A stretch of 64,000 nt of DNA from an uncultured Flavobacteriaceae bacterium (lineage in GTDB: Bacteria; Bacteroidota; Bacteroidia; Flavobacteriales; Flavobacteriaceae): NCBI GenBank assembly GCA_947494565.1, contig CANLVG010000005.1, forward strand, positions 310,001-374,000, given 5' to 3'. The position numbers were made by a program, and so were the translations under genes. Below are positions 3,267-42,240 of this stretch, in pieces (positions within the stretch are counted from its first letter, which is position 1; each line of letters opens with the position of its first letter). The notes beneath the pieces were generated by a model. That model made no database searches and was not told the origin of the DNA. It saw only the letters and a list, made by a program, of their open reading frames with translations.

Positions 3267-3914
3267 ATGGCATTACTTTCAAAAAAAGATACAAATCTGA
3301 TTCTCGATCCCTTAGCGGACAATAATCCGATTACGATTCAAGTATTGGGTATTTGTTCTGCCTTGGCGATTACGGCCGAGCTAAAGGCCTCCTTGGTAAT
3401 GGCGGTATCGGTAATTTTTGTTATGGGCGTAGGTAACGTGGTTATTTCGTTGATGCGAAATATCATTCCTTCTAAGATCCGGATTATTGCCCAGCTTATT
3501 GTGGTGGCGACTTTGGTAATTGTAGTAGATCAAGTTTTGAAGGCCTATCAATATGAGTTGAGTAAAACCTTATCGGTATTTGTGGGACTGATCATTACCA
3601 ATTGTATTATCATGGGGCGATTTGAAGCCTTTGCGCTAGGTAATGGCGTCTGGAGATCTTTTCTAGACGGTATCGGAAATGCCTTGGGGTACGGTGTTAT
3701 ATTGATTATCATCGGGTTTTTCAGGGAACTTTTGGGATCCGGCACCTTGTTCGGAATACAGGTCTTGGGCGATCCTATTGCTAAGACGGGCCTATATGCC
3801 ATAGGTTATGAAAACAACGGATTTATGATTATTCCTCCAGCGGCGTTGATCGTTGTGGGGATTATCATATGGGTACAGCGCTCAAGGAATCCGGCATTGG
3901 TAGAAGAAAATTAA
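3267..3914 (+). CDS. nqrD: NQR subunit D
   Basis: Integral membrane subunit D of NQR, 215 residues with six predicted membrane helices. With NqrE it forms the membrane core through which electrons pass to the NqrB/C flavins. The segments QVLGICSALAIT and GFFRELLGSGTLFG are typical of NqrD/RnfE-type proteins; the NQR assignment follows from the operon. Start 1 bp after the nqrC stop; 22 bp before nqrE. Confidence 0.93.
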   Translation: MALLSKKDTNLILDPLADNNPITIQVLGICSALAITAELKASLVMAVSVIFVMGVGNVVISLMRNIIPSKIRIIAQLIVVATLVIVVDQVLKAYQYELSKTLSVFVGLIITNCIIMGRFEAFALGNGVWRSFLDGIGNALGYGVILIIIGFFRELLGSGTLFGIQVLGDPIAKTGLYAIGYENNGFMIIPPAALIVVGIIIWVQRSRNPALVEEN

Positions 3915-3936
3915 TTAGGCTTTTAAGGATACGATT

Positions 3937-4680
3937 ATGTTAGAACATTTAGAATTATTTTTTAAGTCGATTTTTATAGATAACATGGTATTTGCCGTGT
4001 TCTTGGGCATGTGTTCCTACCTTGCGGTTTCAAAGAAAGTTGCCACGGCCGTCGGCCTGGGAGCTGCGGTAATATTCGTTCTTGCGGTGACAGTACCCTT
4101 AAATTGGTTGCTTGATCAGTATTTACTCCGCGATGGGGCCTTGGCATGGTTAGGACCTGAATATGCCGATTATAACTTAGGCTTTTTGTCCTTCATCCTC
4201 TTTATAGCCACGATTGCTACAATGGTGCAATTGGTAGAGATAGTGGTTGAGAAATTTTCACCTTCACTGTATAATTCCTTAGGGATCTTTTTGCCATTGA
4301 TTGCCGTAAACTGCGCGATTCTTGGTGGGTCTTTGTTTATGCAGGCTAGGGATATACCTTCTTTGGGCTTGGCGCTGAATTACGGTATAAGTTCAGGTAT
4401 CGGTTGGTTTCTTGCCATCTTGGCGATTGCCGCGATTCGTGAAAAGATACGATATTCCAATGTTCCGCCACCTCTGAGAGGATTGGGTATCACCTTTATT
4501 ATTACGGGCTTGATGGGTATTGGTTTTCAAAGTTTTGGAGGCATGTTAACAGGAGATAACGAGCCACCCGAGGATACGACTCCTACCACAGTAGAGGAAA
4601 CCGAAGGAAAAGAACGAATTGAAGAAGGGATTGAAGACGATGAAAAAGCAGTCTCTTATAACGATGTAATAAACGAATAA
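3937..4680 (+). CDS. nqrE: NQR subunit E with acidic C-terminal tail
   Basis: Integral membrane subunit E of NQR, paralogous to NqrD, with six membrane helices. The core is recognisable (FIDNMVFAVFLGMCSYLAVS near the N-terminus, LPLIAVNCAILGGSLFM in the middle). The protein has 247 residues against about 200 in well-studied relatives. The excess is a hydrophilic, mostly acidic tail of about 40 residues starting near GDNEPPEDTT. The function of the tail is unknown; it could contact NqrF or other cytoplasmic partners. Confidence 0.93.
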   Translation: MLEHLELFFKSIFIDNMVFAVFLGMCSYLAVSKKVATAVGLGAAVIFVLAVTVPLNWLLDQYLLRDGALAWLGPEYADYNLGFLSFILFIATIATMVQLVEIVVEKFSPSLYNSLGIFLPLIAVNCAILGGSLFMQARDIPSLGLALNYGISSGIGWFLAILAIAAIREKIRYSNVPPPLRGLGITFIITGLMGIGFQSFGGMLTGDNEPPEDTTPTTVEETEGKERIEEGIEDDEKAVSYNDVINE

Positions 4681-4682
4681 AA

Positions 4683-13521: not shown

Positions 13522-14661
13522 TTACTCGTTGATGTACAGATATCCCTGATGGGAGGTATCGAGGTCTTTCAGTTCAATGACGTAAAAATAGAGGCCAATA
13601 GGAAGGTTTTTGCTTTTTTTTAGTGCTACGTCGGTATTATTTTTTCCATTAAAGTCGTTGCGATAATTTTCGTCAATATAGACTGCTCGGCCCCAGCGAT
13701 TAAATATTTTAAGCAGGTTATTTGGAGACTGCTCCACTGCTGGTATGACCAGATAGTCGTTGATACCGTCATTATTCAAGGTAATTAAATAATTGTCGCG
13801 TAACGGTTGCATTGGGGTGGTATTTCTTCCGAAAGTCAGAATGGGATATACTGCGAGATCGAAGTAGTCGGAAACCATTCTGCCGAAAGCCATATCCCCA
13901 TTTTGTGCAGCAATGCCCAGATCATGCCATTCTTTTTTACCAACATGCCAACCTACTATGGTTAGCTGTTCAATGCGATCAACGAAGTTGCCGATAGTAC
14001 TCCGGTCATCCCATTGGATCTCTACCTTACCGGAGGAGATACCTTTCAAATGCCAGAACTCGGCAGTACTGACGGCCTGTACATTATCGCCTAGAATTTG
14101 GGTGTCAAAGTTATCAATCAGGATTTTGGGTGTATTGGGATTTTCAAAGAAATAGGCACATGTAGCGGTTATGGAGTCGTTTGCTAACTCTAGCTGAAGG
14201 GGTCGAAGGCGTTCCGTATCTCCTACAGGAAATAGAAACTGCTGTTTTTCGACCATCGCGGCGTAACCATCTACCTTGGCGGCGTCACGTTGACCGGAAT
14301 AGATAGCTTCCTCTAAGAAGTCGGTGGTCACATCCGGTATAGCTCTAGGAGTTGTAATCGTGCCGTCGATAAAATTGAGATGCCTCTCGATTCCTATCCC
14401 TACTTCAAGGAAAAGATCTTGTCTCACCATGACCTCCAGATCATTAAAAACAGGACGAAACGTTCCGGAAATGGATGTGCTGGTGCCATTGAAAAATCCC
14501 GCTAAACCCAAGTTTTCATCGAAGGAACCATTATTGATAAGGTTGGAATGAAAACCAATAGCCCCGTTCTCGTGTATCTTGAGATTTCCCATGTTGTGAA
14601 GGGATTCCTGGGCCCCTATGACTTGACTAAACAGTGCGAGTACAATTGGTAGTTTTTTCAT
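13522..14661 (-). CDS. T9SS type B sorting-domain surface protein, paralog 2
   Basis: A 379-residue secreted protein. It has a signal peptide ending IGAQ, an N-terminal beta-rich region beginning HNMGNLKIHENGAIGFHSNL, and a C-terminal type B (CHU_C-like) sorting domain from about residue 285: NNDGINDYLVIPAVEQSP, LLKIFNRWGRAVY, and YFYVIELKD near the end. The domain directs passage across the outer membrane by the type IX system. It is clearly paralogous over its full length to the protein at 18439-19587 (shared KVDGY, FPVGD and LRPLQL/LRPLVL blocks). It starts 12 bp after the fibre-like gene at 14674, so the two are probably cotranscribed. Confidence 0.9.
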   Translation of the reverse strand: MKKLPIVLALFSQVIGAQESLHNMGNLKIHENGAIGFHSNLINNGSFDENLGLAGFFNGTSTSISGTFRPVFNDLEVMVRQDLFLEVGIGIERHLNFIDGTITTPRAIPDVTTDFLEEAIYSGQRDAAKVDGYAAMVEKQQFLFPVGDTERLRPLQLELANDSITATCAYFFENPNTPKILIDNFDTQILGDNVQAVSTAEFWHLKGISSGKVEIQWDDRSTIGNFVDRIEQLTIVGWHVGKKEWHDLGIAAQNGDMAFGRMVSDYFDLAVYPILTFGRNTTPMQPLRDNYLITLNNDGINDYLVIPAVEQSPNNLLKIFNRWGRAVYIDENYRNDFNGKNNTDVALKKSKNLPIGLYFYVIELKDLDTSHQGYLYINE

Positions 14662-14673
14662 GGTTGTTGGTTA

Positions 14674-15435
14674 TCAATTCGACACGGAAGTCACAATGGT
14701 CATCTTTTCTACGGCGATCAAGGAAATAGGGGAAAGGCTCGTTATGGTAGGAGTGTTCATGACCCGATTGTCGTCTTGAAGTGTGGTAAAGGTGCACATA
14801 GGATCCGTACCTGGTGCAGTATCGACCAAAACGGTTGTGGTTGCTATCGTTTGTTCCAAGAAAGCTCCATCGTCCGATCCAACGGTAATCGAATTATTGG
14901 CATTTGCTGAGACTACGTTGGCCGTCGAGGTACTGCCTGATTCGCTTGTATAGGTAAGGATACCTGAGCCATTGTCCTGGGTCAGATTGGTTTCGGTTTC
15001 CGTAATAGAACCCCCTCCATTGCTTAAGATAATACTGGTTCCGTTTTTGGAGAGCAATTGAATCTCGTTAGCAGTATCAAGATCTAGGGTGCTAGGAACG
15101 TTCGTTATATTGTTCCATTCCGGTGCAATAACCGCATTGTTCACTGCAAAAAGAGTATCATTTAAAAGTAGCCCATTACCTGCCGTGTAGATGGTGTTGT
15201 CATCGCCGTCGAGAAGGTCTGATGCTAGTACTATCGGTTCTGCCCATCCATTTCCATTGAAGAGCATGACTTTTTTTTCCGTGCTATTATATAATAGTGA
15301 CCCTTCGATGGCATTAACGATAGTGCTGGTCTCCGCTGTAGTTGCGTGGGTCAAACCCAATAGTAGGTTTCCATCTATCTGTGCTTTGCAGATAAGTGGT
15401 AGTGCAAAGAGAACAGCAAGAATTGTTTTTTTCAT
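14674..15435 (-). CDS. Secreted tail-fibre-like protein, short member
   Basis: A 253-residue secreted protein with signal peptide ending LICKAQ. The N-terminal module EGSLLYNSTEKKVMLFNG, then GWAEPI, is the same short repeat seen at the start of the 17360 and 19598 proteins (pattern: G-x-hydrophobic-x-Y-N-T/S, then a W). The middle is low-complexity Ser/Thr/Asn-rich sequence typical of fibrous shafts. No knob, coiled coil or sorting domain is visible at its C-terminus, so it may depend on its neighbour at 13522 for surface attachment. It lies 5 bp from the upstream gene and 12 bp from the downstream one. Confidence 0.75.
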   Translation of the reverse strand: MKKTILAVLFALPLICKAQIDGNLLLGLTHATTAETSTIVNAIEGSLLYNSTEKKVMLFNGNGWAEPIVLASDLLDGDDNTIYTAGNGLLLNDTLFAVNNAVIAPEWNNITNVPSTLDLDTANEIQLLSKNGTSIILSNGGGSITETETNLTQDNGSGILTYTSESGSTSTANVVSANANNSITVGSDDGAFLEQTIATTTVLVDTAPGTDPMCTFTTLQDDNRVMNTPTITSLSPISLIAVEKMTIVTSVSN

Positions 15436-15440
15436 TTGTA

Positions 15441-16445
15441 CTATAAATCAAGGACCGTAAACATGAATTCTGAATTGAATCTTGCCCTATTTGAACCTCC
15501 ATTATCGTTATCTCCAATAATGACCTCAAAACTTGTTGTGGTCTGATTGGAGTACGATATGCCTGGATCATCGTTTCCAGCGCCTCCTCTTCCCGGTTGG
15601 GTGAGTTGAATGATGTAATCAGCATCTGAAACCAGACCTGCGGGGAGGTTTACCCGATAATATCCGTTACCGGCAAGCTTGGTGACGGTTATACCGGTTG
15701 TAGCTTTGGTAACTGATCCATTTGCCGCAATTTTTCCGTAGGCTCTAATGGGTTGCGATGACCAGGCGGTTCCTGTCGTAGTCGCTATGAGCACTTGTCC
15801 TGCCGTCCCTGCCGTATCATTCTCGTCCCATAGTTGCCCTTCCAATTCTAGGATTTCGTTGATTTGAACACTGGTGGAACCTGAGTTTTCGTCGAAACGA
15901 ATGGCTTCAATACCTCCGACACTAAAAGCTATCTCATCGTCCGCAGGGCTGAACATGCCCGTATTGGAATCACTGGTAAATCTATAAGAAGGTTCTACTA
16001 AGCTACCGTTGGAATTGCGAATACCTTGAGATCGAATAGCGCCGGTCACTTCTAATTTGCTCGAGGGGGCGTTTGTACCGACCCCTAAGCGATTATTCGT
16101 GTCGTCCCAGAACAGTTCGGTATGATCTTCATTTGGTCGACCGTCGGCCGCAGCAAAAAAAAGAGATCCACTCGTTCCCTCATGAATCACCTCCTGCCAA
16201 GCAGTTCCATCCCAAACCGATGTGATCCGCTGATTTGGATCAGTGGTGTCAAACCACACATCACCTTCTATCGGGCTAGTTGGGGCACTAGTGCCGGTGG
16301 TCACTACATTGTTCTTTACGGTGATGATATTGCCCTTATTGTCAATAACGGTTTCTTCCTGAGCTGTAACTCTTACACACCCAGAGAGGGCCAATAAGAT
16401 CACTATCAAATTTTTTAAAGTAGCTATGTTGCAGGAATCTGACAT
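15441..16445 (-). CDS. Secreted tail-fibre-like protein with C-terminal knob
   Basis: A 334-residue secreted protein. The N-terminal signal contains LSGC, so it may be a lipoprotein; cleavage after VTAQ is the alternative. Then come IDNKGNIITV, a W-containing module (GDVWFDTTDPNQR, SVWDGTAWQEV), and a fibre repeat (LGVGTNAPSSKLEVTGAIRS, then YRFTSDSNTGMFSPADDEIA) of the sort common in phage tail fibres. The last 100 residues look like a compact beta-sandwich knob ending FNSEFMFTVLDL. Same fibre repeat occurs twice in the 19598 protein. Probably a surface adhesin or fibre component; ligand unknown. Confidence 0.78.
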   Translation of the reverse strand: MSDSCNIATLKNLIVILLALSGCVRVTAQEETVIDNKGNIITVKNNVVTTGTSAPTSPIEGDVWFDTTDPNQRITSVWDGTAWQEVIHEGTSGSLFFAAADGRPNEDHTELFWDDTNNRLGVGTNAPSSKLEVTGAIRSQGIRNSNGSLVEPSYRFTSDSNTGMFSPADDEIAFSVGGIEAIRFDENSGSTSVQINEILELEGQLWDENDTAGTAGQVLIATTTGTAWSSQPIRAYGKIAANGSVTKATTGITVTKLAGNGYYRVNLPAGLVSDADYIIQLTQPGRGGAGNDDPGISYSNQTTTSFEVIIGDNDNGGSNRARFNSEFMFTVLDL

Positions 16446-16542
16446 TACAATGATTGATTCAGGGTGTGATCGATTTGTTTTGAACCCTGAAGAATAAGAT
16501 GCAAAGAGGGTCGCATAGGCCGTTTCTTGAAATCCGGAATAT

Positions 16543-16571
16543 ATTTAGGCGTACGAGACGGACGCCTAAAT
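16543..16571. repeat. Inverted repeat between fibre-like genes
   Basis: Perfect 10-bp arms ATTTAGGCGT and ACGCCTAAAT separated by nine bases, in the 169-bp gap between the genes at 16615 and 15441. It lacks a T run on the minus strand, so it is a weak terminator, attenuator or an mRNA stability hairpin splitting the cluster. Confidence 0.55.
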
Positions 16572-16614
16572 ACCTTCCTTTGTATGTACACTTTTGAACT
16601 TCTTACAGTACCTT

Positions 16615-17310
16615 TTACTTGACATACTGTACTTCAATGACATCTCCGGCATATACCGTCCAGTCATTGGGAACGACCATATTGGGTACAAGGGTAACCG
16701 TAGATCCAGAAACGGTATAGTCGACATTTGAAATTAGTTTCGCACCGTTTCTATATACCCATATTTGGCTGAATGCAGGTAAGACAGGGCTTCCGGTCAA
16801 GGGATAAGAGACCTGTGCGGCAGCCGCTGTAAAGCTTTCCTGTCCGCTTTGTAGCAAATCAGAGGCCAATAGTTTCTTTGTGGCTCCTGTGGCTTCATCC
16901 CGAACAAGGATGGTATAGCCGGTGCCCGTTCCATGATCTGATTCGGTGGTGGCATCGGTTGAAGGCAGTTCCGTGGTAACCAGTTCAATACCGTCTAGGC
17001 CGAAAACGTTGCCATTTGCGTCGATAAAAGTATCGTCGGTCAATGTGCCTCCCAATTGCCAGGTTGTGGTGGTCACATCTGCTGTCGTATTCGATAACAT
17101 CGTGATACCATTTTTAGATTGGAGGTACTTAATGGTACCCTTATTGTCAATGACCCTGACCGATCCACCTAGATTGGTAACTCCCGGCTGAATATCGGCT
17201 TCTTTTGCCGAGTCTCCCGCTGTTTGTTGGGCAGTCGTGATGCCAAAAGTCATTAAGGCAATGGCAAACATGCCTGTTTTTACAAATTTTTGATACGTTA
17301 AGATTTTCAT
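16615..17310 (-). CDS. Secreted fibre-like protein with VYRNG C-terminal domain
   Basis: A 231-residue secreted protein with signal peptide ending GITTAQ. VRVIDNKGTIKYLQSKNG and WQLGGTLTDDTFIDANGN match the layout of other locus members (compare IDNKGNI in the 15441 protein and ELGGSLTRATEITTDANY in the 17360 protein). LLASDLLQSG is close to VLASDLLDGD of the 14674 protein. The C-terminal domain contains IWVYRNGAKLISNVDYTVSG and ends AGDVIEVQYVK, a small beta-domain also found at the end of the 17360 protein. It has no sorting domain. Confidence 0.75.
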   Translation of the reverse strand: MKILTYQKFVKTGMFAIALMTFGITTAQQTAGDSAKEADIQPGVTNLGGSVRVIDNKGTIKYLQSKNGITMLSNTTADVTTTTWQLGGTLTDDTFIDANGNVFGLDGIELVTTELPSTDATTESDHGTGTGYTILVRDEATGATKKLLASDLLQSGQESFTAAAAQVSYPLTGSPVLPAFSQIWVYRNGAKLISNVDYTVSGSTVTLVPNMVVPNDWTVYAGDVIEVQYVK

Positions 17311-17359
17311 GATAAAGGGGATTTGATTTAATTATTACTATTCTTATTTGAAAGGTTCC

Positions 17360-18280
17360 TTAATAAAATTGTACGATTCTGATTTCGTCATTTTGAAAAC
17401 AGACCACCGGATTCTCGAGTTCGATGGTCGTATCATCGACTACAGTAAAACCTAGCTTAATGCCATTACGATAGACATTTATTTTTTTTGAGTTGGAAAT
17501 GGTCAATGGTGGTGTGAATCGGTTTTGGCTGTCATTTGCAAGGATAACGACCTCCTCTTGTTGTACTAATCCGAATATGGATGATTTTCTTAGGACTCCA
17601 CTTGTTTCATCCACCATTACTATAGAGTTGGTCGGATCCGTGTTTTCTTCTAGACCACGGATAGCCAATGTGTAGTTGGCATCTGTTGTGATTTCGGTTG
17701 CCCTGGTCAAGGAACCACCGAGCTCCATGTTGCCCGCACCTTTGGTGAGTCCGTTTGTAGCATTGACAGTCTGTAGGATCCAAGTGGTGCCGTCGTATGC
17801 ATAAATCGTACCGGTGTTGCGGTCTACATAAAGTGTCCCTCTGACCGGATTAGGAGCTGTAATGGCACTGGGCACTCCATCACCGTTCGAAATCTGGGAG
17901 GGAAGAGGGATCCAAGTCGCTCCATCCCATAAGTTCACTGACGAATCCATATCGTTGAACCAAATATCACCTGTATTAGGGTTTAAAGGAGCATTCGCAG
18001 CTGTCGTAACCAACGCTTGTGAATGGCAAAGACTTTTCCATGCCGCTCCTTCAAAAATGAAAAGACATTCCTCATCCGTATTATAGACCATTGCCCCTTC
18101 CAATGGAGCAAGTACATTCATTTGTTTTGTGGTCATTCGGGTAGGTACGAATACTTTATTCGAACTTTCGAGCTCCAAAATAGAAGAGCCATCGATGGTA
18201 TTGATGTTATCACCTACCTTGACTTGAGCCCATGCGCTATACGCGGATAGCAAAAGCAAAGTCCATAAAAGTTGTTTCAT
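17360..18280 (-). CDS. Secreted fibre-like protein with N-terminal YNTD module
   Basis: A 306-residue secreted protein with signal peptide ending SAWAQ. It starts with VKVGDNINTIDGSSILELES and LEGAMVYNTDEECLFIFEG, nearly the same module as the 1136-residue fibre protein upstream (VKIGENPQSLDGASVLELES). Two W-containing repeats follow (GDIWFNDMDSSVNLWDGATW; GTIYAYDGTTWILQ), then ELGGSLTRATEIT, and a C-terminal beta-domain with INVYRNGIKLGFTVVDD. A 49-bp gap separates it from the next gene; a 158-bp gap lies upstream. Confidence 0.78.
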   Translation of the reverse strand: MKQLLWTLLLLSAYSAWAQVKVGDNINTIDGSSILELESSNKVFVPTRMTTKQMNVLAPLEGAMVYNTDEECLFIFEGAAWKSLCHSQALVTTAANAPLNPNTGDIWFNDMDSSVNLWDGATWIPLPSQISNGDGVPSAITAPNPVRGTLYVDRNTGTIYAYDGTTWILQTVNATNGLTKGAGNMELGGSLTRATEITTDANYTLAIRGLEENTDPTNSIVMVDETSGVLRKSSIFGLVQQEEVVILANDSQNRFTPPLTISNSKKINVYRNGIKLGFTVVDDTTIELENPVVCFQNDEIRIVQFY

Positions 18281-18438
18281 AAGTATCGGTCAATGAATGC
18301 CGAAAGTAGTATGGAATAGGAGAATTACATAGTAAATGTTGTGAATTTGTAAGAAAAGTATGTAGTATTATATATTTTTGTTGTAAGAAAAAAAATAAGA
18401 TGTTATCAAATACGCTTTTGAAGCCCAGTAGTGTGGGT

Positions 18439-19587
18439 TTATCGCGTTAAATAGAGAAATCCTTGAAAATCAAGCCCTAGATCTCTCATTTCAACAATAA
18501 AGAAGTACACCCCTGTGGGTAGTCCTTTTTCTTTATCCATTACAATGGTGCCCGTATTGGCAAAGCCACGAAACTCGTCGGTATAGTTTTCCATTTCAAA
18601 AACCTTCAACCCGAATCGGTCAAAAATCTGAAGTGAATTGCTGGGTGATTGCTCCAGTTCTGGAATGATCAAGGAGTCATTGTTTCCATCACCATTGGCG
18701 GTCACCAAGAAATTGTCAACGCTGATGAACTCTTGAGGTTCGCCTAGGGTACTTGCCAAGGTCAGAATTTCATACTCATCGGGTACGAAACTCGACGAAC
18801 TCACGAACCCTTGGGTGATATCACCCACTGCCGGAGCGCCTGCAAGGGATTCCCATTGATTAGCGGCCTTGCTCCAGCCCACAACAATTAGGGCCAGGGG
18901 GTCGTCGGTGAGCAGTGCTATGGCGCTTCGTTCATTCCAGCTCAATTGCACGGTAGAAGGGATGTTTCCCTCCAGACGCCAAAACTCCGTGGCACTTACT
19001 AAATCAACACCTTCTCCCTTCGAAGCCGTATTAAAAGAAGGAAGGGTAGACGGACTATTGGCACTTTCGAAAAAATAAGCGCATTTGGCCAATTGATTGA
19101 CTTGCTCGGAGTTCAATACCAGCGGGCGCAATTGAACTGCATCGCCGACCGGAAAAGTGAAGTTCTGTTTGCCTGTAATGGCCACATAGCCATCAACTTT
19201 ACTGATATCGCTACTATTGGTCGAAGCGGCGTCAAATATGAAATTCAAATAACTATCGGTGAAAGTGCGAGGGGTCTCGAAATTTCCTGAGATGAAGTTG
19301 GCGTTGTTTAGGGTGTTGATGGCGGTATTCAACAGCACATGGTTGGGGTTGGCGATTTCAAGATCAAAAAATGTGGTTGCAAAAGCGCCGGAAACGGTTA
19401 ACTGGCTATCCCCATAAAAACCTACCAGCCCCAGATTATCATCCAAGACGCCATCATTGATGAGGTTGGTATGTAGGCCCAATTGTCCATTTTCATGTAC
19501 CTCTAAGTTGCCAATGTTGTAGAGGGCACTTTGGGCGTTTACCCATGCGCTACAACATACTGCTATATAACCGATGTATTTCCTCAA
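18439..19587 (-). CDS. T9SS type B sorting-domain surface protein, paralog 1
   Basis: A 382-residue secreted protein with signal peptide ending WVNAQ, starting from a TTG at 19587 (no ATG in frame upstream before the stop). The N-terminal block YNIGNLEVHENGQLGLHTNL matches paralog 2 at 13522. The C-terminal type B sorting domain reads ANGDGNNDSLIIPELEQSP, LQIFDRFGLKVFEMENY, and PTGVYFFIVEMRD. It should be secreted by the type IX system. It starts 10 bp after the stop of the giant fibre gene, so both are read from one message and the products probably act together. Confidence 0.9.
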   Translation of the reverse strand: MRKYIGYIAVCCSAWVNAQSALYNIGNLEVHENGQLGLHTNLINDGVLDDNLGLVGFYGDSQLTVSGAFATTFFDLEIANPNHVLLNTAINTLNNANFISGNFETPRTFTDSYLNFIFDAASTNSSDISKVDGYVAITGKQNFTFPVGDAVQLRPLVLNSEQVNQLAKCAYFFESANSPSTLPSFNTASKGEGVDLVSATEFWRLEGNIPSTVQLSWNERSAIALLTDDPLALIVVGWSKAANQWESLAGAPAVGDITQGFVSSSSFVPDEYEILTLASTLGEPQEFISVDNFLVTANGDGNNDSLIIPELEQSPSNSLQIFDRFGLKVFEMENYTDEFRGFANTGTIVMDKEKGLPTGVYFFIVEMRDLGLDFQGFLYLTR

Positions 19588-19597
19588 ATCGATGCGA

Positions 19598-22500
19598 TTA
19601 GTTGTTTTTTAACAAGGCTTTAATTTCCTCAAGATCTCTTTTCAACGATTGTAATTCTTCCGATAAGTTCTGGTTTTCGGATTGTAATGTTTTGATTTTA
19701 TGCTCTTGTTCGATGGTATGTAAAAAGAGCTCCTCGATTTTTTCAAGGTTTTGAATGTTGGATTCACTAAGATTCCATACACCTTCATCTTTTACCTGTT
19801 GGGCCGATTTGATACCCGGTAGGTGCTTGTATCTTTTAACAAAAGCTTCGATTGCTTGCAGACTTTTGAACTCATAGTCTGATTTTAATTCTGAACTTCC
19901 TAAAAAATACTTTTGAAAAACATAATCGGGAATAACTTGAGTGCCACCTATCCAAATCTCTGTATCCACTTGTAAGTCTCCCGCCACATGAAGTTTTCGC
20001 GCTGGGGTATTTGTTCCAATACCTACTCTCTGATCGTCTCCTAAATATAAGACTTCGATACCAGCAGTGGAGAAATTTAGAACATCTGCTCCATCAGAAT
20101 ACATGCCTGTGTTCAAATCACCTTCGAATGTATAGCTTGGGGCCGCCACACCACCAATAATATTTTTAATAACATTTTCCGTTCTGATGCTACCATTTAC
20201 ATGTAGTGTCTCAGCAGGATTTGTAAGCCCAATCCCAACATTTTGATTTCCAATAATTCTCAAGGCTTCGTTACCGCCACTGACCAAACCAAGTTGACCG
20301 ACCCCAGGTCTATACATACCAGTGGATGATTCGGCCGAAAAGCTATAACCAGGTTCACCAACAGATCCGTTATTTGATGCAAAACCAATTCTGGCTTGAA
20401 TCTGTCCATCTACATCAAGCTTACTTTGAGGAGCGCCAGGCAATGTTCCTATTGCGATATTGCCAGATCCTCCAAATACCAAGTTATTATTATTTAAATC
20501 ATGTGTTCTATTGGCTGCGAGTACAAGATTATTAACACTGAATAAATTACCTCCCAGAGCTGCAAGAGTTGTAATGGCTTCTTGAACATTTGTCTCATCG
20601 GGGGTACCAAGATCATTATCAAGGTCCAATGCTGGATTTAATGTTACTTCGGTAGCCTTAGCATAAGTCCATGATAAGGTGCCCGCACCGTCGGTAGTTA
20701 GCATTTGTAGGTTTGTACCACCATTTGGCAAAGTACTGTCTGGTAAATCTTCCCAACCAACGTTTCCAGTGTCTTTGTCAGTAACCAGAATTCGATCTTT
20801 TGGTGTAGCTGCAGAAATTGCCCCAGGCTTTATTCGAATGACATCTGCACCAATATTGGCAGCTTCTAAAGTAATATTGTCTAACTGTATGGAAGAATTG
20901 ATTGCGGTTCCATTTCCGCGCAATAAATCAATTTTGTTATTGGCAACATCAAGTTTGACGGATTGGGGTTTTGAAGAGATATAAGTGCTATTTGTCGGAT
21001 TGGCTAAATCAGGTTCCCAAGTCACAATATCCCATTCGTCCGTTCCTGCGGGTAAGCCTGATGGGTTCACCCATTGTACCTTATTTTCAAATCCTCCAGA
21101 AGCCAATACCTGACCAGCCGTCCCAAATCCAACACCATCAATATCAATACCTCTATAAAGACGAATGTCCTTATCCTCGGTAATTGTAAAGGCCTTATCG
21201 GTATCCAACGCCGGGTTGGCGTTGTCGTTATCGGTATCCTGTAAAAAGTGAAAATCGCCACTTCCTGTTGTGGTCATACGTTCAAATACCAAGGAGCCCT
21301 TGCCATGGTCTCCCGCTCGCTCGACCGCAAATAACATGCCGACCGCTGAAGGGTTTACTGCGGTTTCAACAGCTCGATTTTGTATTTGAAGGGGGTAGGC
21401 CAATTGTCCATTTAAGTTTTCTAATATTTGAACTTTTGCTTCCGTGGATTTACTTTGGGTAAAACCATCCAATCCCACAAACAGGGCACCTGTGCCAAAA
21501 CGTGAAGTCGGATCCCAAAGCAATCCGCCATTGGCACTCACAACTGGTTCACCTGTGGTTGCATCCGCAAAGAAGATGTGGTCAGCAGTGCCCGTAATGG
21601 TTGTAGAGGCTCCTAGTTCCCAGCCAGCATCAGTACCAGGTCCGGGACCATCTAAGTCCGTATTCCATTGGATGATTTGGCCATCAGTTGTCGCCCCATT
21701 GGGGGCTATTTTTTCTAAAGTTACCGCATTGTCGGCAAGCCCAAGCGCCGTAGCGATACTGCTTCCATCCCCATCTAAGGTATTGTCCGAAATCACCGCT
21801 CCTCCCGTGGGTAAGGGAACCCAAGTCACTGCATCACCAGCGGGGTTCGTTCTTAAAATCTGGTCGGCGCCACCTGGCGCAATGGTAAACGGGTCCCCAG
21901 CAGTTCCGGCTCCCGTAAGTAAGGTGCCGTCAACTACTTCGGTAGTTCCTCCTCCAGGGGTAACTGTTTCCCAACTAACGGCACCTGTGCCATCTGTGGT
22001 CAGAAATTGCCCATTGCCGCCGGGCTCTATTTTAAAGGGGTCTCCAGCAGTTCCAACACCAGTAATCGTAGTTTGATCGGCAACTTCGGTGCTGCCCCCT
22101 CCACCGGATAAACTCGCCAAAGGTACCGTGAAATCGGTTCCGGCTTCGGTGATCACTAAATCCGTTCCATTCAGTACGGCATCGGTTATCAATTCATTAT
22201 CATCAATCTCACCCGTAGTACTAGGTAAGGTAACGGTATTACTCCCTGAAATGGTCAAGTCATTACCATTTAATTGTAAATTCTGTATCTCGTTGTTTGG
22301 ATTTGCATCGTTGTCTAGGTTAATGGCATCTGTATTGTCTTGTATGGCATTGATCAAAGGGGTTTCGTCATAATAGGCACCATCGTCGGTTCCTACTTGC
22401 AAGGCATTGCCCCCGTCAAGGCTAACGACATTGGCACTAGTGATGTACCCTACATCGTTGGTAAAGGCACTCACCCCGATATTGGCATTGTCCAATTCTA

Positions 22501-23008
22501 TAGGTCCTACCGAATTTTCGGATAGCTCGAATTGTGTAATAACATCTTCGCCAAATTTGCCAGTACCGATAGAGCCATCTAAAATATCTTCGGTACCATT
22601 GATACTAAAATCTCGAATTTGCGTCGTACCGATACTGTTTTCAGCTACCTCCAGATTATTTCCTGTACCTGTAGGAGTGATGACTATCGTGCTGATATCA
22701 TTGACGATGGGGTCTGCAGTAAGTGGGCCATCTGTACTACCACTTCCTCCGATGTTTACCCACTGGGTACCATCATAGTAGTGTACGCTTTGAACATCGG
22801 TATTGTAGACCAAAGCACCTTGAAGTGGAGTGATAGCATTCATCTCAGCAGTACTCACCCGCGTGATTACCAAAACCTTGTCCGTACTCTCCAGTTCCAA
22901 TACCGAAGCGCCATCTAAAGATTGTGGATTCTCGCCAATTTTCACCTGGGCCTTAACCAGATGAACCATACAAATACCGAAAAAAAGTAGGAAGATAATT
23001 CGTTTCAT
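19598..23008 (-). CDS. Large tail-fibre-like surface protein with C-terminal coiled coil
   Basis: A 1136-residue secreted protein, signal peptide ending VKAQ. Parts in order: N-terminal YNTD/W module (ITPLQGALVYNTD, then YYDGTQWVNIGG); long shaft of Asn/Asp/Gly-rich repeats, with two clear copies of a unit containing GTAGDPF and PGG (about residues 310-400); two copies of a tail-fibre unit (STGMYRPGVGQLGLVSGG; NTGMYSDGADVLNFSTAG) each followed by VGIG; then a terminal segment (YVFQKYFLGSSEL, KRYKHLPGIKSAQQV) and a coiled coil of about 60 residues ending LKNN. The coiled coil suggests trimerisation. No sorting domain is present; the partner at 18439 has one. Confidence 0.85.
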   Translation of the reverse strand: MKRIIFLLFFGICMVHLVKAQVKIGENPQSLDGASVLELESTDKVLVITRVSTAEMNAITPLQGALVYNTDVQSVHYYDGTQWVNIGGSGSTDGPLTADPIVNDISTIVITPTGTGNNLEVAENSIGTTQIRDFSINGTEDILDGSIGTGKFGEDVITQFELSENSVGPIELDNANIGVSAFTNDVGYITSANVVSLDGGNALQVGTDDGAYYDETPLINAIQDNTDAINLDNDANPNNEIQNLQLNGNDLTISGSNTVTLPSTTGEIDDNELITDAVLNGTDLVITEAGTDFTVPLASLSGGGGSTEVADQTTITGVGTAGDPFKIEPGGNGQFLTTDGTGAVSWETVTPGGGTTEVVDGTLLTGAGTAGDPFTIAPGGADQILRTNPAGDAVTWVPLPTGGAVISDNTLDGDGSSIATALGLADNAVTLEKIAPNGATTDGQIIQWNTDLDGPGPGTDAGWELGASTTITGTADHIFFADATTGEPVVSANGGLLWDPTSRFGTGALFVGLDGFTQSKSTEAKVQILENLNGQLAYPLQIQNRAVETAVNPSAVGMLFAVERAGDHGKGSLVFERMTTTGSGDFHFLQDTDNDNANPALDTDKAFTITEDKDIRLYRGIDIDGVGFGTAGQVLASGGFENKVQWVNPSGLPAGTDEWDIVTWEPDLANPTNSTYISSKPQSVKLDVANNKIDLLRGNGTAINSSIQLDNITLEAANIGADVIRIKPGAISAATPKDRILVTDKDTGNVGWEDLPDSTLPNGGTNLQMLTTDGAGTLSWTYAKATEVTLNPALDLDNDLGTPDETNVQEAITTLAALGGNLFSVNNLVLAANRTHDLNNNNLVFGGSGNIAIGTLPGAPQSKLDVDGQIQARIGFASNNGSVGEPGYSFSAESSTGMYRPGVGQLGLVSGGNEALRIIGNQNVGIGLTNPAETLHVNGSIRTENVIKNIIGGVAAPSYTFEGDLNTGMYSDGADVLNFSTAGIEVLYLGDDQRVGIGTNTPARKLHVAGDLQVDTEIWIGGTQVIPDYVFQKYFLGSSELKSDYEFKSLQAIEAFVKRYKHLPGIKSAQQVKDEGVWNLSESNIQNLEKIEELFLHTIEQEHKIKTLQSENQNLSEELQSLKRDLEEIKALLKNN

Positions 23009-36641: not shown

Positions 36642-38586
36642 CTATTTTAGTGCAACTCCTTCTTTAATCTGTAAAATCGGGAATTCAGTTCTTCTATTCA
36701 GTTCCAGTTCTTCCGCGGAACAGTCTTTTTGATCGGTGCAACTATTTACGGGCATTCGCTTGCCAAAACCTTTGTACGAGATAATATGCTCAATAGGAAC
36801 TCCGTTCGCGATGAGATATTCGTAGGTAGATTTCGCTCTTGCCTCCGATAATTTGTCATTATATACATGGCTCCCGATCGGGTCGGTATGAGCTTCCAAC
36901 TTGATAATCATATCCGGATAGGTTTTCGTCATCAATTTGACTACTTTATTTAACTCGGTAGCTGCATCCGGTCGGATATCACTTTGGTCGAAATCGAAAT
37001 AGATTTTGTTCAAATTGGCCAACAGTTTTAGGTCTAGAACCGGTTGTAAAACGATATCCCTTCGCATCATTTTTGTTTGGGGCGAAGTATGATAAGTGTT
37101 GAAGAATTGTGTCTCGGTCGGGTGGGTATTCCTAGACGCTTCAATACGATAATTGGACTTTCTATTCACGGGAAGTCTGTAGTACCCATTCGAGTCGGTC
37201 GTCGTTTCCATGACCAAGGTCTTAGTTCGTTGATCGAATAGTTTTATGCGAACATTATCTAGGGGCTGGTTGTTGACTCCATCGCTAACGAAGCCTTCCA
37301 TATCTAAAGCCGGCGTGAATTTGAACTCATAAATATCGTCACTACCGACACCGCCCTCTCTATTGGAACTTACATAGCCCGTAATTCCGTTTTTATGCCC
37401 GTAAAATGCGAAATCGTCCGCGGGACTGTTCAAGGGATACCCCAAGTTAATAACGTCTATTACTTCGCCTTTTTCATTTGAAATGGTTGAGAAAACATCT
37501 AATTGACCATAACCAACGTGCCCATCCGAAGAGAAGAACAATTTGTTTTCCGTATTTATGAATGGAAACATTTCATTACCCTCCGTATTTATGACTGGCC
37601 CTGCATTTATGGGGTTTCCAATTCCACCTCGTTCGTGAATTTCAGAATAGTAGATATCAGTCCCGCCAAACCCGCCTGGTCGGTCCGATGTATAGTAAAT
37701 TCTTTTTCGGTCTGGTGTGATGGTTGGATGTCCGGTCGAGTGGTAATCGCTATTGATTCGTAAACTGCGGTCTACCTTCCATTGGTCATGATTTTTAATC
37801 GCGGTAAAAATCTTTAAATTGATTTCGTGCTCTGCGCCGTAGGCTTTCTTTTTTTTATAATAGTTATTTCTTGTGAAGTAGATAATCGTATCGTTTTTAT
37901 AATCGGTAGAGCATACCAGATTACTCTCATGGAATTTCGTGTTTACATCTCCTTTTATTTTTTTCGGTCTGGAGAGCGGATCATCTTCTCGAACCACAAA
38001 GAGATCCAACCATGGCTGGTCATTCCAGCCGTAAGAGCCTCCGTTTACTTCATCCGTTCTGGAAGAAGCGAAAAAGAAATCACCTCCTCTGGTAAATGCC
38101 CCAAAATCACTCTGCTCAGAATTGAAGTGAACGGGTTTTACCTCGTATCGCTGTCTACTGTTAAATACAATAGAAGCTAAATTGCCATCTTTAAGAAAGC
38201 GTTTCAGACGCGAATCGTTCTTATTGTACTTCTTGTATAGTTTTAGCCATTTCGCTGATTGTTTTCGTTGTCCATTGGCATATAGGGCCATGGCGTACTT
38301 AAATAAGTAATCAGGTGGTAAACTGGCATCATTGATAGTCATCTGAAAATGTGGAATTGACTTCTTGAATTCCCGAAGTAAAAGATAGCATTCCGCTAAT
38401 TGGCGATTCGCATGTTCCGGATTCAAATTACCCTTCAGCATTTTCTGATATTCAGGAATAGCTTTAGCATAGTCAAATTGTCCAAAATAGTAATCTCCCT
38501 TTTTTTTGCGCATTGTACTGTGCACTTATCAGTTGAATTGATAGGAGGAACACTGACAGCATTGTATATGGTTTTCTGTAACTCAT
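36642..38586 (-). CDS. OmpA/PorE-like T9SS protein, apparent frameshift at signal-peptide junction
   Basis: The main frame (38525 to 36642, 627 codons) has TPR-like repeats at the N-terminus (KAIPEYQKMLKGNLNPEHAN), a PD40-type beta-propeller (HPTITPDRKRIYYTSDRPGG, about residues 110-400), a carboxypeptidase-regulatory-like domain (about 400-490), and a C-terminal OmpA peptidoglycan-binding domain (IYFDFDQSDIRPDAATELN). It has no signal peptide as it stands. A separate frame starting at ATG 38586 encodes a good signal peptide ending LLSIQLISAQYNAQKKG; removing one A from the eight-A run (T8 at 38500-38507) joins the two perfectly. So the gene is either sequenced with an error, phase-variable, or read by slippage. 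It lies 19 bp after the PorP/SprF gene. Confidence 0.8.
38500..38507 (-). repeat. Eight-A homopolymer at the frameshift
   Basis: A8 in the coding strand (T8 on the plus strand) where the signal-peptide frame and the mature frame of the OmpA-like gene meet. Seven A would keep one reading frame. Such runs are prone to slipped-strand changes, polymerase slippage and sequencing error. Confidence 0.75.
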
Positions 38587-38605
38587 GTATGGTAAATTGT
38601 ATGTG

Positions 38606-39511
38606 TTAAAAGTATCTTGGGGATTTCACGCCGCCTAATCGTCTTTTGAAGAGTTCGTAAATCAAGATGATTTCATGGGTGCCCCCAGTGTAGGGACGAA
38701 TGGTAGCGGTAGGAAGATCATAAGCATAGCCAATTCTGAAATCCCTAGCTACTTGGTAATCCATCATAACCCCGAAATTGGAAGCATCATTAAAACGATA
38801 TGAAGCACCTAACCAGAATTTTTCATTGAAGAGAAAACTGGCTGTAATGTCGTAAGTTGCCGGCGCCCCATTGGTGAATTTGGCGATTATAGTGGGTTTG
38901 AACTTCACTGTTTCGGAAATATCTAGAACGACCCCACCGATGGCATAATAACTATTTCGCTCCAAAGCTTCAAATTCTCCTTCATTCAAATCCGTATTGA
39001 GAATTCGAGGTACAGAGGCACCGATATACCATTTGTTAGAACCAATAAAAGCTCCGGCCCCAAAATTTGGGTTCCAACTGTTGAAATTGGAGTTAAAGAA
39101 AGGGTCGTTAAGATCAGGATTATCAAGCCTGTAATTGGTGAAACCGGCTTTTAGACCGAGCGATAGCTTTACTTCTCGGCCCAGAAGTACGGAATATGAA
39201 AAATCTCCGTAGACATAATTCGTTTTTTCGAACCCGAGTTGATCCCCGATATAAGAGATTCCCAGACCGATATTATCGTTACGTAACGGTGTATGGACGG
39301 ATAAGGTACTGGTCGTCGGATTTCCTTCAAGACCGACCCATTGGTTTCGATGTAGGGCGGTTACATTCAGCGTTTCACGACTTCCTGCATACGCAGGGTT
39401 GACAGAAATTGTATTGTACATATATTGCGTGAACTGGGGTAACTGCTGGGCATATATGCCAGCGCTCATGACCACGAACATCACGCAAGTGAGTTTGATT
39501 GAATTTTCCAT
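38606..39511 (-). CDS. PorP/SprF family T9SS outer-membrane protein
   Basis: A 301-residue outer-membrane beta-barrel protein, signal peptide ending GIYAQ. Typical stretches are LPQFTQYMYNTISVNPAYAG, VTALHRNQWVGLEGNP and LGISYIGDQLGFEK, and the C-terminal strand-rich FRIGYAYDLPTATI. PorP/SprF proteins bind or anchor type B cargo proteins at the cell surface; the cargo here is probably the neighbouring 897-residue protein. Middle gene of a three-gene operon. Confidence 0.94.
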   Translation of the reverse strand: MENSIKLTCVMFVVMSAGIYAQQLPQFTQYMYNTISVNPAYAGSRETLNVTALHRNQWVGLEGNPTTSTLSVHTPLRNDNIGLGISYIGDQLGFEKTNYVYGDFSYSVLLGREVKLSLGLKAGFTNYRLDNPDLNDPFFNSNFNSWNPNFGAGAFIGSNKWYIGASVPRILNTDLNEGEFEALERNSYYAIGGVVLDISETVKFKPTIIAKFTNGAPATYDITASFLFNEKFWLGASYRFNDASNFGVMMDYQVARDFRIGYAYDLPTATIRPYTGGTHEIILIYELFKRRLGGVKSPRYF

Positions 39512-39546
39512 TTGGGGGTGTTTTAAATGTATGTGTGTTTGAACCT

Positions 39547-42240
39547 TTATTTGGTACCTAAATAGATATAACCGTTAATAGGTTTTAAATCGATCCTATT
39601 GCTGATATTGATGATATAGTAGTAGGTGCCCGCAGGAAGAAGGCCATTCGAGCCAAATGAACTTTCAGGCGAAGTGCCGGCCCAATTATTTTGATAATCT
39701 TCAGCTTGATATACTTTCTTGCCCCATCGGTTGAATATCATGACATCGTAGATAAAGAAACAGTCTTCTCCGCCCAATACGGTAAATACATCGTTAATGC
39801 CATCACCATTTGGTGTCACAGTGGTAGAAACCGTGATGTCTTCTTCGTTACAGTCCACACAGTCGGCATTCACTTCTATGATGAATTGGACCAAGTAGGA
39901 ACAACGACCCATTGTCGAGCTATAAGAGATACCATAGGTGCCGGGTTCAAGGTCTGCAGGGTCAAATGTGGTTCCGTTTAGCGTTGCAACTCCTTGGGTG
40001 ACGGTAAATGTTCCATTGGTATCGAAATTTTCTGGCAAATATGATATGAGGTCGATAGGATTGTCGGCAGTACATGCGGTTATCGTACTAATGACTTCTT
40101 CCAATTGCATAATGAAAACGATCTGCTCGAAAGAAGCGGAATTTCCACAGCTATCCGTGACATCCCAAGTTCTAACGATCATGAAGTCACCACTGGTGGT
40201 CGACGGTTCTTCAATCTCCGTAAAGTCGACTTGATAATTTCCGCAACCCCCTGAGAAAGTGAGTTCTGGAACAGCGGGTATCTCATCTCCGCAAGACAAC
40301 ATATATTCCTGTGTATAGTCCTCTACGATAATGACTGACATATCATTGTCAATAATGCTTCCAATGGCCCTATTGTCTAAAATGGTAATCGGGTCACTTG
40401 AGGCAATACTGATTTCAAAGGTTTCCGTGGACTCTGTTAGAAGGTCTTCGATGGTCGGAATGTTCAGTATGGTCGTACCTGTACCTTCCGGAACCGTAAA
40501 ACTGACTAATTGGGTATAATCGGCGTCTGTTGTTGTCTGGTGGGTATAGGCCAAATTCAAGGAGGCATCTTCGGCCAAGAGGTGAGAAGATGTGATGCCG
40601 AATGAAAGGTCGGTTCCTTCATTTCCCGAGGCATCTGCAATAGACAGAACCGGAATAACATAGAGATAAGTTGGGTCATGGTTCCCTAGGCCACAAGCAT
40701 CCACTGTTCCTGAGCTCAAGGTACCGACCATGGCGGGGTTTGTCTCTCCAGTAAAAGTTGCCAAAGCTTGAAGAGCGATTACCACACTACAGGTGACGCA
40801 CTCCTGGTTCACGAACAAATTGAAGTCAAGTGCGTATTCCGGATCGTTTACATCAGTATATCCATCCGCTACAAAAAAGCGCAGTTCCCTTGTTCCATTA
40901 TCGAGCGTATAGGTGACTCCGGGAGGTAACGGATCCGTATTGGCCAACTCTACCTGGGGTGGTAAGGTAAGGGCAATCTCCAGATTTCTGATATTGTCAT
41001 TTCCCACATTCTTCAATCGTATCTCCACCGGTGCGGTGTCTCCCGGATCGAAAGTGGCCCCGACGACACTGGTAGTGAAGTTGAGAGCCCCTAGACTGGG
41101 TTCAAAGATCTCTACACTTAGGCCTAGAAGGTAAAGACCATAAGTCTCTTGATTTGAGGTCATGCGTACCGTTGCAGAGGTTTGGTCGTTATCTATAAGC
41201 TGATTCCCATTATTAGCGAGTTCGAACAACGCCGCATCATATCCGAGTGTATTGGTGCTGGTGGGGTTACGATCCAAAAATTGATTCCCATTAACGGTGA
41301 TCTTACTATTAAAGAAGTTATTCGCATCGCGTTGGGTGGTTGAGAGTGATGCCCAGTTACCATTGGTGTCCAAAATCTGGAGTTGATCCCCCGAAATACC
41401 ACGATCACCCTCAAGAGAGCCTATCAACATATTCGCGTTAACCGGACCATTTGGAACGGTCTGGAAACCGTCAAACAAGATATCAAATGAATTAGAGCTC
41501 TGAGTAATGTTGGCATAGCCGTCGAAAAGGGTAATATTCCTTCGTTTTAATTGAGGGCTCTCATAAATGAACACGATTTGCCAGCCACCTGAAGTACCCG
41601 TGTTACCCCCATCATCATGAGAAAAAAGATCTCCCTCGGTGGCCTTGACATTGGCCACTTGATAAGTGCCATAAGGGCTAGCGGTTTCCTGTACCAATGA
41701 GGTAATATCCTTTATGCCGATGTATGGATCGTTTACGAAATGTGCCGCACGTCCATCGTAGATCAGTTCATCCGCGGTCAGCATAGTATAAATACTTGTA
41801 CCGGGCAGCATCAATTTCACCTGATTAGAAGGCCAGTTGACTTCAGTTCCGCCGTTGCCGGTCAAATTTCCCGAACTGTCAACACCATATTCTTTATTTG
41901 CGGCAGCCCAATATAAAAAGGCTTTTTTAATGCTCAGGCAAGCACTTGAAGGTGCAGGGTTTACCAAATTGGCGCTACTCGAGTTGAAGGTGGTCGGATC
42001 TGAGTCGATGTCGACATAGGTAGAGGCCAAAAAGTGGTTATCACTAGTACCTGTATAGTCCAGCGTCGCGTGTTCTGAAACCATATTGTTGGCAATCATG
42101 ACAAAATCACCATTGACAGCATCTGAAAATCTAGGACTGAAGGTGCGTTGAATCTGTGCTACCGCAGTAGAGGACGAAATGGCACAGATAATGAACAGAA
42201 AAGACCTTAAGAAGTTCTTACTTGAGGTATAATTGTGCAT
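39547..42240 (-). CDS. Large T9SS type B cargo protein with Calx-beta and HYR-like domains
   Basis: An 897-residue secreted protein, signal peptide ending TAVAQ. Order: an N-terminal conserved region (SPRFSDAVNGDFVMIANNMV, AFLYWAAANKEYG) up to about residue 380; a DUF11-like repeat (VGNDNIRNLEIALTLPPQVE); a Calx-beta domain at about 537-635 (SGNEGTDLSFGITSSHLL, NIPTIEDLLTESTETFEISI); an HYR-like domain (DYTQEYMLSCGDEIPAVPEL); and a type B sorting domain from about residue 800 (VTPNGDGINDVFTV, MIFNRWGKKVYQAEDYQNNW). SprB-like gliding adhesins have a similar gene neighbourhood with PorP/SprF, though this protein is much shorter. Confidence 0.92.
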   Translation of the reverse strand: MHNYTSSKNFLRSFLFIICAISSSTAVAQIQRTFSPRFSDAVNGDFVMIANNMVSEHATLDYTGTSDNHFLASTYVDIDSDPTTFNSSSANLVNPAPSSACLSIKKAFLYWAAANKEYGVDSSGNLTGNGGTEVNWPSNQVKLMLPGTSIYTMLTADELIYDGRAAHFVNDPYIGIKDITSLVQETASPYGTYQVANVKATEGDLFSHDDGGNTGTSGGWQIVFIYESPQLKRRNITLFDGYANITQSSNSFDILFDGFQTVPNGPVNANMLIGSLEGDRGISGDQLQILDTNGNWASLSTTQRDANNFFNSKITVNGNQFLDRNPTSTNTLGYDAALFELANNGNQLIDNDQTSATVRMTSNQETYGLYLLGLSVEIFEPSLGALNFTTSVVGATFDPGDTAPVEIRLKNVGNDNIRNLEIALTLPPQVELANTDPLPPGVTYTLDNGTRELRFFVADGYTDVNDPEYALDFNLFVNQECVTCSVVIALQALATFTGETNPAMVGTLSSGTVDACGLGNHDPTYLYVIPVLSIADASGNEGTDLSFGITSSHLLAEDASLNLAYTHQTTTDADYTQLVSFTVPEGTGTTILNIPTIEDLLTESTETFEISIASSDPITILDNRAIGSIIDNDMSVIIVEDYTQEYMLSCGDEIPAVPELTFSGGCGNYQVDFTEIEEPSTTSGDFMIVRTWDVTDSCGNSASFEQIVFIMQLEEVISTITACTADNPIDLISYLPENFDTNGTFTVTQGVATLNGTTFDPADLEPGTYGISYSSTMGRCSYLVQFIIEVNADCVDCNEEDITVSTTVTPNGDGINDVFTVLGGEDCFFIYDVMIFNRWGKKVYQAEDYQNNWAGTSPESSFGSNGLLPAGTYYYIINISNRIDLKPINGYIYLGTK

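Follow-up and report, generated by a model that had tools for sequence, protein, structure and literature searches.

Type B proteins of the type IX secretion system (T9SS) need a carrier of the PorP/SprF family, and PorE can tie PorP to peptidoglycan (PMC9143113; PMC12618676; PMC12635249). Secretion as well as anchoring of type B proteins was found to be SprF-dependent (PMC12618676; PMC12635249), and a complex of PorE, PorP and a type B protein has been shown biochemically (PMC9143113). Fibres of phage-like build are represented by the mosaic adhesive trimer (MAT) proteins of Bdellovibrio, which are intertwined trimeric fibres with a beta-rich domain after the signal peptide and have an S74 domain at the C-terminus in 13 of 21 cases (PMC10769870). 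Type B substrates, mosaic trimeric fibres (MAT) and collagen-like surface proteins are each known already. A bacterial example of the latter is BclA. To our knowledge, the current view is that the substrates of type IX secretion are chains with a C-terminal sorting domain (CTD) of their own. No published description of a conserved pairing of fibre and type B genes was found in open papers, in agreement with a preliminary description of the locus treated here, which knew of no such pairing with a T9SS carrier as a system. The pairing suggests that adhesive fibres are put on the cell surface in a way not described before.

The locus lies in a stretch of 64,000 nucleotides, hereafter the window (G000:C5:310001-374000), within a 5.39-Mb Flavobacteriaceae-like genome. 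Seven minus-strand genes were reported between 13522 and 23008, and every open reading frame was recovered at its coordinates and on its strand. The genes and their pairing are real; their arrangement, initially regarded as one seven-gene locus, is that of two tandem units (1136 and 382 residues; 306, 231, 334, 253 and 379 residues). Unit A (18439..23008, minus strand) consists of the F1 fibre gene P0001 (19598-23008, minus strand, 1136 aa) and is closed by P0002 (18439-19587, minus strand, 382 aa, TTG start), a type B partner of what is here called the TB family. P0001 is composed, in this order, of a signal peptide, the F1 head (QVKIGENPQS...YNTD...YYDGTQW), a variable shaft with tail-fibre-like modules and a tip formed by a C-terminal helical coiled-coil (tip class 1). 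Unit B (13522..18280), likewise entirely on the minus strand, starts with the F1 fibre P0003 (17360-18280, 306 aa), continues with P0004 (16615-17310, 231 aa, secreted and weakly fibre-like) and the F2-type fibres P0005 (15441-16445, 334 aa, tip class 0) and P0006 (14674-15435, 253 aa, with the head IDGNLLLGLTHATTAE), and is closed by the TB protein P0007 (13522-14661, 379 aa). From P0001 through P0007 the intergenic gaps are 10, 158, 49, 169, 5 and 12 bp, the first and the last of which are the 10 and 12 bp originally noticed between each sorting-domain gene and the fibre-like gene before it (P0001/P0002 and P0006/P0007). The multi-fibre form of unit B was seen again in a related locus (L083), which has the same head gene, the same second gene and then a P0005-like gene; P0003 is 49% identical to the 312-aa F1 gene there from end to end, and P0004 is 43% identical to the gene after it. 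No match to the motif TAnnTTTG was present in the 158-bp gap preceding unit B, sigma-70-like promoters and terminators were not more frequent than in shuffled sequence, and an Rfam scan of the window gave no match. Elsewhere in the window (36642-42240, minus strand) a full conventional type B set is encoded, consisting of an 897-aa CHU_C protein, a PorP/SprF protein (301 aa) and a PorE-like OmpA/PD40/TPR protein (627 aa).

The five fibre-like proteins were said to share modules, and this is borne out by pairwise comparison: P0001 is 49% identical to P0003 over the first 70 mature residues, 33% to P0005 over 119 residues and 26% to P0006 over 232 residues, and three of the five match phage families (PHROGs). 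P0006 is called fibre-like because it is similar to P0001, and P0004 is the weakest case, as its fibre-like character comes solely from a C-terminal region weakly common with P0003. Residues 90-334 of P0005 share 60-66% identity with the distal end of the F1 fibres of L080 (2125 residues) and L060 (2211 residues). The absence of a sorting domain from the fibres, pointed out at the start, extends beyond the window: no T9SS CTD was detected in the five window proteins, nor at the C-termini of the 79 fibres that served for the counts of tips, GXY tracts and CTDs. S74 had no Pfam match in P0001-P0006 and was absent from the families listed for the 79 C-termini. These fibres fall into 11 shared tip families and seven singletons, with matches to BclA_C (4 members), Phage_tail_C_2 (2), TNF (1) and PHROG tail-fibre families. 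Domains of the BclA_C, TNF and phage-tail types are trimeric in known proteins. GXY tracts of 24 to 1734 residues occur in 16 of the 79 fibres, 13 of them longer than 100 residues. The longest, an unbroken tract of 1734 residues, belongs to a 1997-aa F1 gene of L050 upstream of a TB gene (3525-4682) and is very long for a bacterial collagen-like stretch. Collagen tracts of hundreds of residues together with BclA_C, TNF and phage-tail tips in homologues lend indirect support to putative trimeric shafts; since no GXY tract was found in the window fibres, trimerisation of the latter is what we infer. The AlphaFold monomer of P0003 was of low confidence except for the confidently modelled tip (residues 240-306), and its structural matches to tailspikes and tail fibres are for this reason only suggestive. 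PDB sequence searches with P0001, P0003, P0005, P0006 and the F1 head gave no credible relative.

Both partners, the 382- and 379-aa proteins, were assigned a type IX type B sorting domain from the beginning. PF13585 (CHU_C) was matched above the Pfam cut-off in both (1.8e-21 and 5.2e-25), at residues 289-380 of P0002 and 292-377 of P0007, and TIGR04131 scored 33.4 and 30.1 bits, slightly under its curated cut-off of 35. The modelled type B CTD has the fold of solved T9SS CTDs, as it matched those of NucA and PorZ with a middling score (Z 7.3, rmsd 2.6-3.2 over 73-84 residues). As read off the sequence, a Sec signal peptide is cleaved before Gln, between WVNA and QSALYN in P0002 and between VIGA and QESLHN in P0007, and Q18 is nearly invariant in 30 relatives. 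By CTD, signal peptide and the presence of SprA in the genome, P0002 and P0007 are T9SS type B substrates with predicted secretion. They are paralogues with 42% identity, and the partner gene is also found in Cellulophaga, Maribacter and Allomuricauda among the named relatives, on which the assignment of the genome to the family is based. A GAIN/UPA-like fold of the TB body was considered and set aside, the matches being weak (Z 5.4-5.9). A TB-like fragment at G000:C12:158019-158576 (L008, L189), next to a 1342-aa open reading frame, has a TAA stop inside the match and looks decayed.

Gene calling in 41 loci (the window and 40 regions of related genomes) gave 55 TB-family genes, 14 of which lie in units cut by contig ends. 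Upstream of each remaining TB gene the unit was walked to its first gene, and in 41 of 41 complete units this is an F1 fibre and the last is TB, either as F1-TB (35 units) or as F1-(F2 or other)-TB (6 units). The position of the type B gene downstream of a fibre gene, first noticed in the window, holds in all complete units; TB follows the gene before it at a median distance of 7 bp. The conserved F1 head is about 75 aa long and has the consensus VKIGDNPQxIDPASxLELESSxKVLVITRVTTAQMNxIxPLxGALVYNTDxxCVHYYDGxxWxNLC. Contig breaks in related drafts (L041-L078) often fall inside fibre genes, which is expected as the shafts are repetitive.

Many marine-type flavobacteria carry one to three such units at one fixed chromosomal site. 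In the window the flanks are M1 peptidase, VanY, M48 and GpmI genes; one side of the site has a CarbopepD_reg pair, DUF6702 and M1 peptidase, and the other VanY, M48 and GpmI. Flank genes were present on at least one side in 38 of the 40 relatives' loci and on both sides in 14. Among 15 genomes without an F1-TB pair, several show these neighbours side by side, free of any intervening fibre or TB gene (e.g. L192), and in others the site is rearranged or cut by a contig end. These observations bear on the idea that the genes are a prophage or contractile-injection remnant, i.e. phage tail fibres that have a host gene among them. The PHROG tail-fibre matches agree with such an origin, which is nevertheless scarcely credible given the housekeeping flanks, the signal peptides of the fibres, the host secretion signal of the partner, the relatives that have the site without the genes, and the maintenance of the locus over many genera. 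A plain prophage tail fibre was rejected, as neither phage structural genes in linkage nor marks of integration were seen and 38 of the 40 loci keep a flank.

To follow the two proteins separately, a set of 249 genomes, most genera being represented once, was searched with the TB body and with a profile of the F1 head, and calls were made at a clear score gap. With an F1 profile built from partner-adjacent genes and P0003, which divergent heads elsewhere could escape, 56 genomes had both, two TB only, two F1 only and 189 neither (Fisher p about 1e-50, kinship ignored). Fibre and type B genes therefore keep company beyond chance in dozens of genera, a question raised in the preliminary description. 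The TB-only genomes are G103 and G106, where the TB genes lie near contig ends; weaker F1 matches (49-86 bits) below the score gap fell for the most part in genomes that lack TB. The window locus holds the only two F1 heads of its genome. F1-head and TB-body distances were correlated (Mantel r 0.51, p 0.0005), with partial correlations of 0.62-0.63 when each of three flanking genes was controlled for and of 0.28 when the M48 gene stood in for the species (22 units). In the nine loci with two or more units the true pairing was better than the swapped one in 11 of 11 comparisons. The idea of a shared system survived these genomic checks, the partner pairs being conserved in other genomes. In 24 of the 41 units, the TB closest by sequence in any other genome is paired with another tip; same-tip units have closer TBs on average, tip class being partly tied to TB. 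The tip of P0005 is 80% identical to that of an F1 fibre in L054. F1 head and TB are co-inherited as pairs and tips and shafts, including collagen-like and BclA/TNF-like ones, are exchanged. Positional orthology of entire units, in place of co-adaptation, could account for this co-inheritance.

Fibre and TB could also be independent adhesins that are co-transcribed, with only regulation and an old neighbourhood in common. Most loci have a flank of one site, and co-inheritance can come from staying put. However, TB and F1 are almost never apart, the pairing is kept at L073 where neither canonical flank is present, the order of fibre and then TB is constant in complete units, and a like order of passenger and then TB recurs in a distant class at other sites, which makes independence very unlikely.

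In this distant class (Flavobacterium, Polaribacter and others) a passenger gene is usually followed by TB (about 410 aa), then by PorP/SprF and a PorE-like OmpA protein. About half of the passengers are fibres with a like modular build and the rest are other secreted proteins; a T9SS CTD was found by Pfam in none of the 10 scanned. The distant class adds genes for PorP/SprF and PorE-like proteins, which make the known type B anchor complete and match the complex of PorE, PorP and a type B protein. CTD-less passengers before TB-SprF sets (L170, L171, L174, L175, L179; L176, L177) end in short shared motifs, xNP(M/H)xxxxxK-like (e.g. VITNPMLPSRAKQ, LITNPMIYQKVD) or YMRHGKYFxxxxxQPMEFG, which may be peptides for docking to the type B partner. 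No PorP/SprF gene adjoins the window locus. Orphan type B proteins of F. johnsoniae (Fjoh_1123, Fjoh_1720 and Fjoh_4934) use the unlinked shuttle Fjoh_1677 (PMC12618676). The window's own genome has a SprA match of 2825 bits, 13 PorP/SprF matches and at least one unpaired SprF-PorE pair. In the latter an unpaired PorP/SprF gene (L206 2296-3234, G000:C17) is followed by a PorE-like gene, which makes it a carrier candidate for type B proteins of the orphan kind. L219, L224 and L226 likewise contain SprF genes that are not preceded by a type B gene. A PorP/SprF query from the unpaired SprF-PorE pair was strongly enriched in TB-positive genomes; this carrier is not claimed, because most of the top matches carry other type B adhesins. 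PorP/SprF and PorE-like carriers, which did not figure in the preliminary description, are likely the missing parts.

Taken together, we favour with moderate confidence a bipartite system for surface-fibre display, in which TB serves fibres of exchangeable tip as adaptor for both export and anchoring. It builds on the grammar of the units, the near-exclusive occurrence of F1 and TB together, the inheritance of head and partner as pairs, exchange of tips and shafts, the CTD on the partner only, the fixed site, and SprA and unpaired PorP/SprF genes in the genome; binding, trimerisation, export route, surface location and adhesion are the parts that we infer. F1 fibres, sometimes followed by F2 fibres, would enter the periplasm by Sec, be cut before Gln and assemble, probably as trimers, with no T9SS signal of their own. 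The small TB, last in the unit, is read as an adaptor because the type B CTD sits on the partner alone, and would bind the conserved fibre head. TB would then take or anchor the fibre outside by means of SprA and a carrier of the PorP/SprF family, possibly also of a PorE-like protein as anchor to peptidoglycan. The exchangeable C-terminal tips would face outwards and make the fibres adhesins of interchangeable specificity, whose targets could be glycans of algae or bacteria, surfaces or neighbours, and shaft and tip would be free to vary once TB supplies the export and anchor signal. The poor monomer models of the fibres, the absence of a PorP/SprF gene next to the locus and the possible positional orthology of the units count against this display system, and no support was obtained for a contact weapon, an option offered earlier. 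A bolder version, which we put forward tentatively and at somewhat less than even confidence, is that the type B protein acts in trans, giving piggyback export of a pre-assembled CTD-less trimer through SprA, PorP/SprF anchoring and a swappable upstream gene; Bacteroidota would then have a general two-gene platform on which any fibre or other passenger is displayed by exchange of that gene. For export of one protein on the T9SS CTD of another, no precedent was found in the open-access literature.

Alternatively, TB could be a surface docking plate only, which anchors fibres that exit by another way and bind it at their base. The P. gingivalis type B protein PG1035 sits on PorP as a proposed cap (PMC9143113), and fibres that lack any CTD fit this picture; but no other outer-membrane route was seen in the locus, and an export gene should keep company as well, which renders a mere plate unlikely. 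As a sub-case of display with another purpose, the complex of fibre and TB could ride the gliding track on a SprF-type carrier like SprB. Some orphan type B CTDs do send cargo to the gliding machinery (PMC12618676), whereas the distant class has a PorE-like gene beside SprF, a layout tied to static anchoring (PMC9143113; PMC12618676), and a role in gliding is considered quite unlikely.

If the display system holds true, a small type B protein paired with CTD-less mosaic fibres widens what T9SS puts on the surface and helps to explain how large tail-fibre-like and collagen-like Bacteroidota proteins could get outside. Flavobacteria would have a locus for altering binding specificity through tip exchange.

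Among known systems, the MAT proteins are similar in their described architecture of signal peptide, conserved domain next to it (of which the F1 head would be a putative counterpart), phage-like fibre and varied C-terminal tips, whereas the window fibres are without S74 domain and paired with a T9SS type B partner. Proteins of the BclA type resemble homologous units in combining a GXY shaft with a BclA_C/TNF-like tip; the window fibres differ in having no GXY tract, a T9SS partner and a conserved F1 head. With phage tail fibres and tailspikes the fibres have in common a modular shaft and tip domains of PHROG tail-fibre families, but they are secreted host proteins of a stable host locus. GhpA of the Aureispira grappling hook (PDB 9flp) is alike in its C-terminal type B CTD, which matches P0007 residues 292-375; the match covers the CTD only, and GhpA is a single giant chain. 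In contrast to a type B adhesin of the single-chain, SprB-like kind, the CTD is here on another polypeptide than the putative adhesive part, TB having about 380 aa. The T9SS type B systems with PorP/SprF (SprB-SprF, PG1035-PorP-PorE, Fjoh_3952-3951-3950) share the PF13585 CTD and the signal peptide with the window partners, while no carrier gene adjoins the window locus and a gene of its own, upstream and for a fibre that lacks a CTD, encodes the putative adhesive part. The distant class, with its gene order TB-PorP/SprF-PorE, is laid out like these known type B systems.
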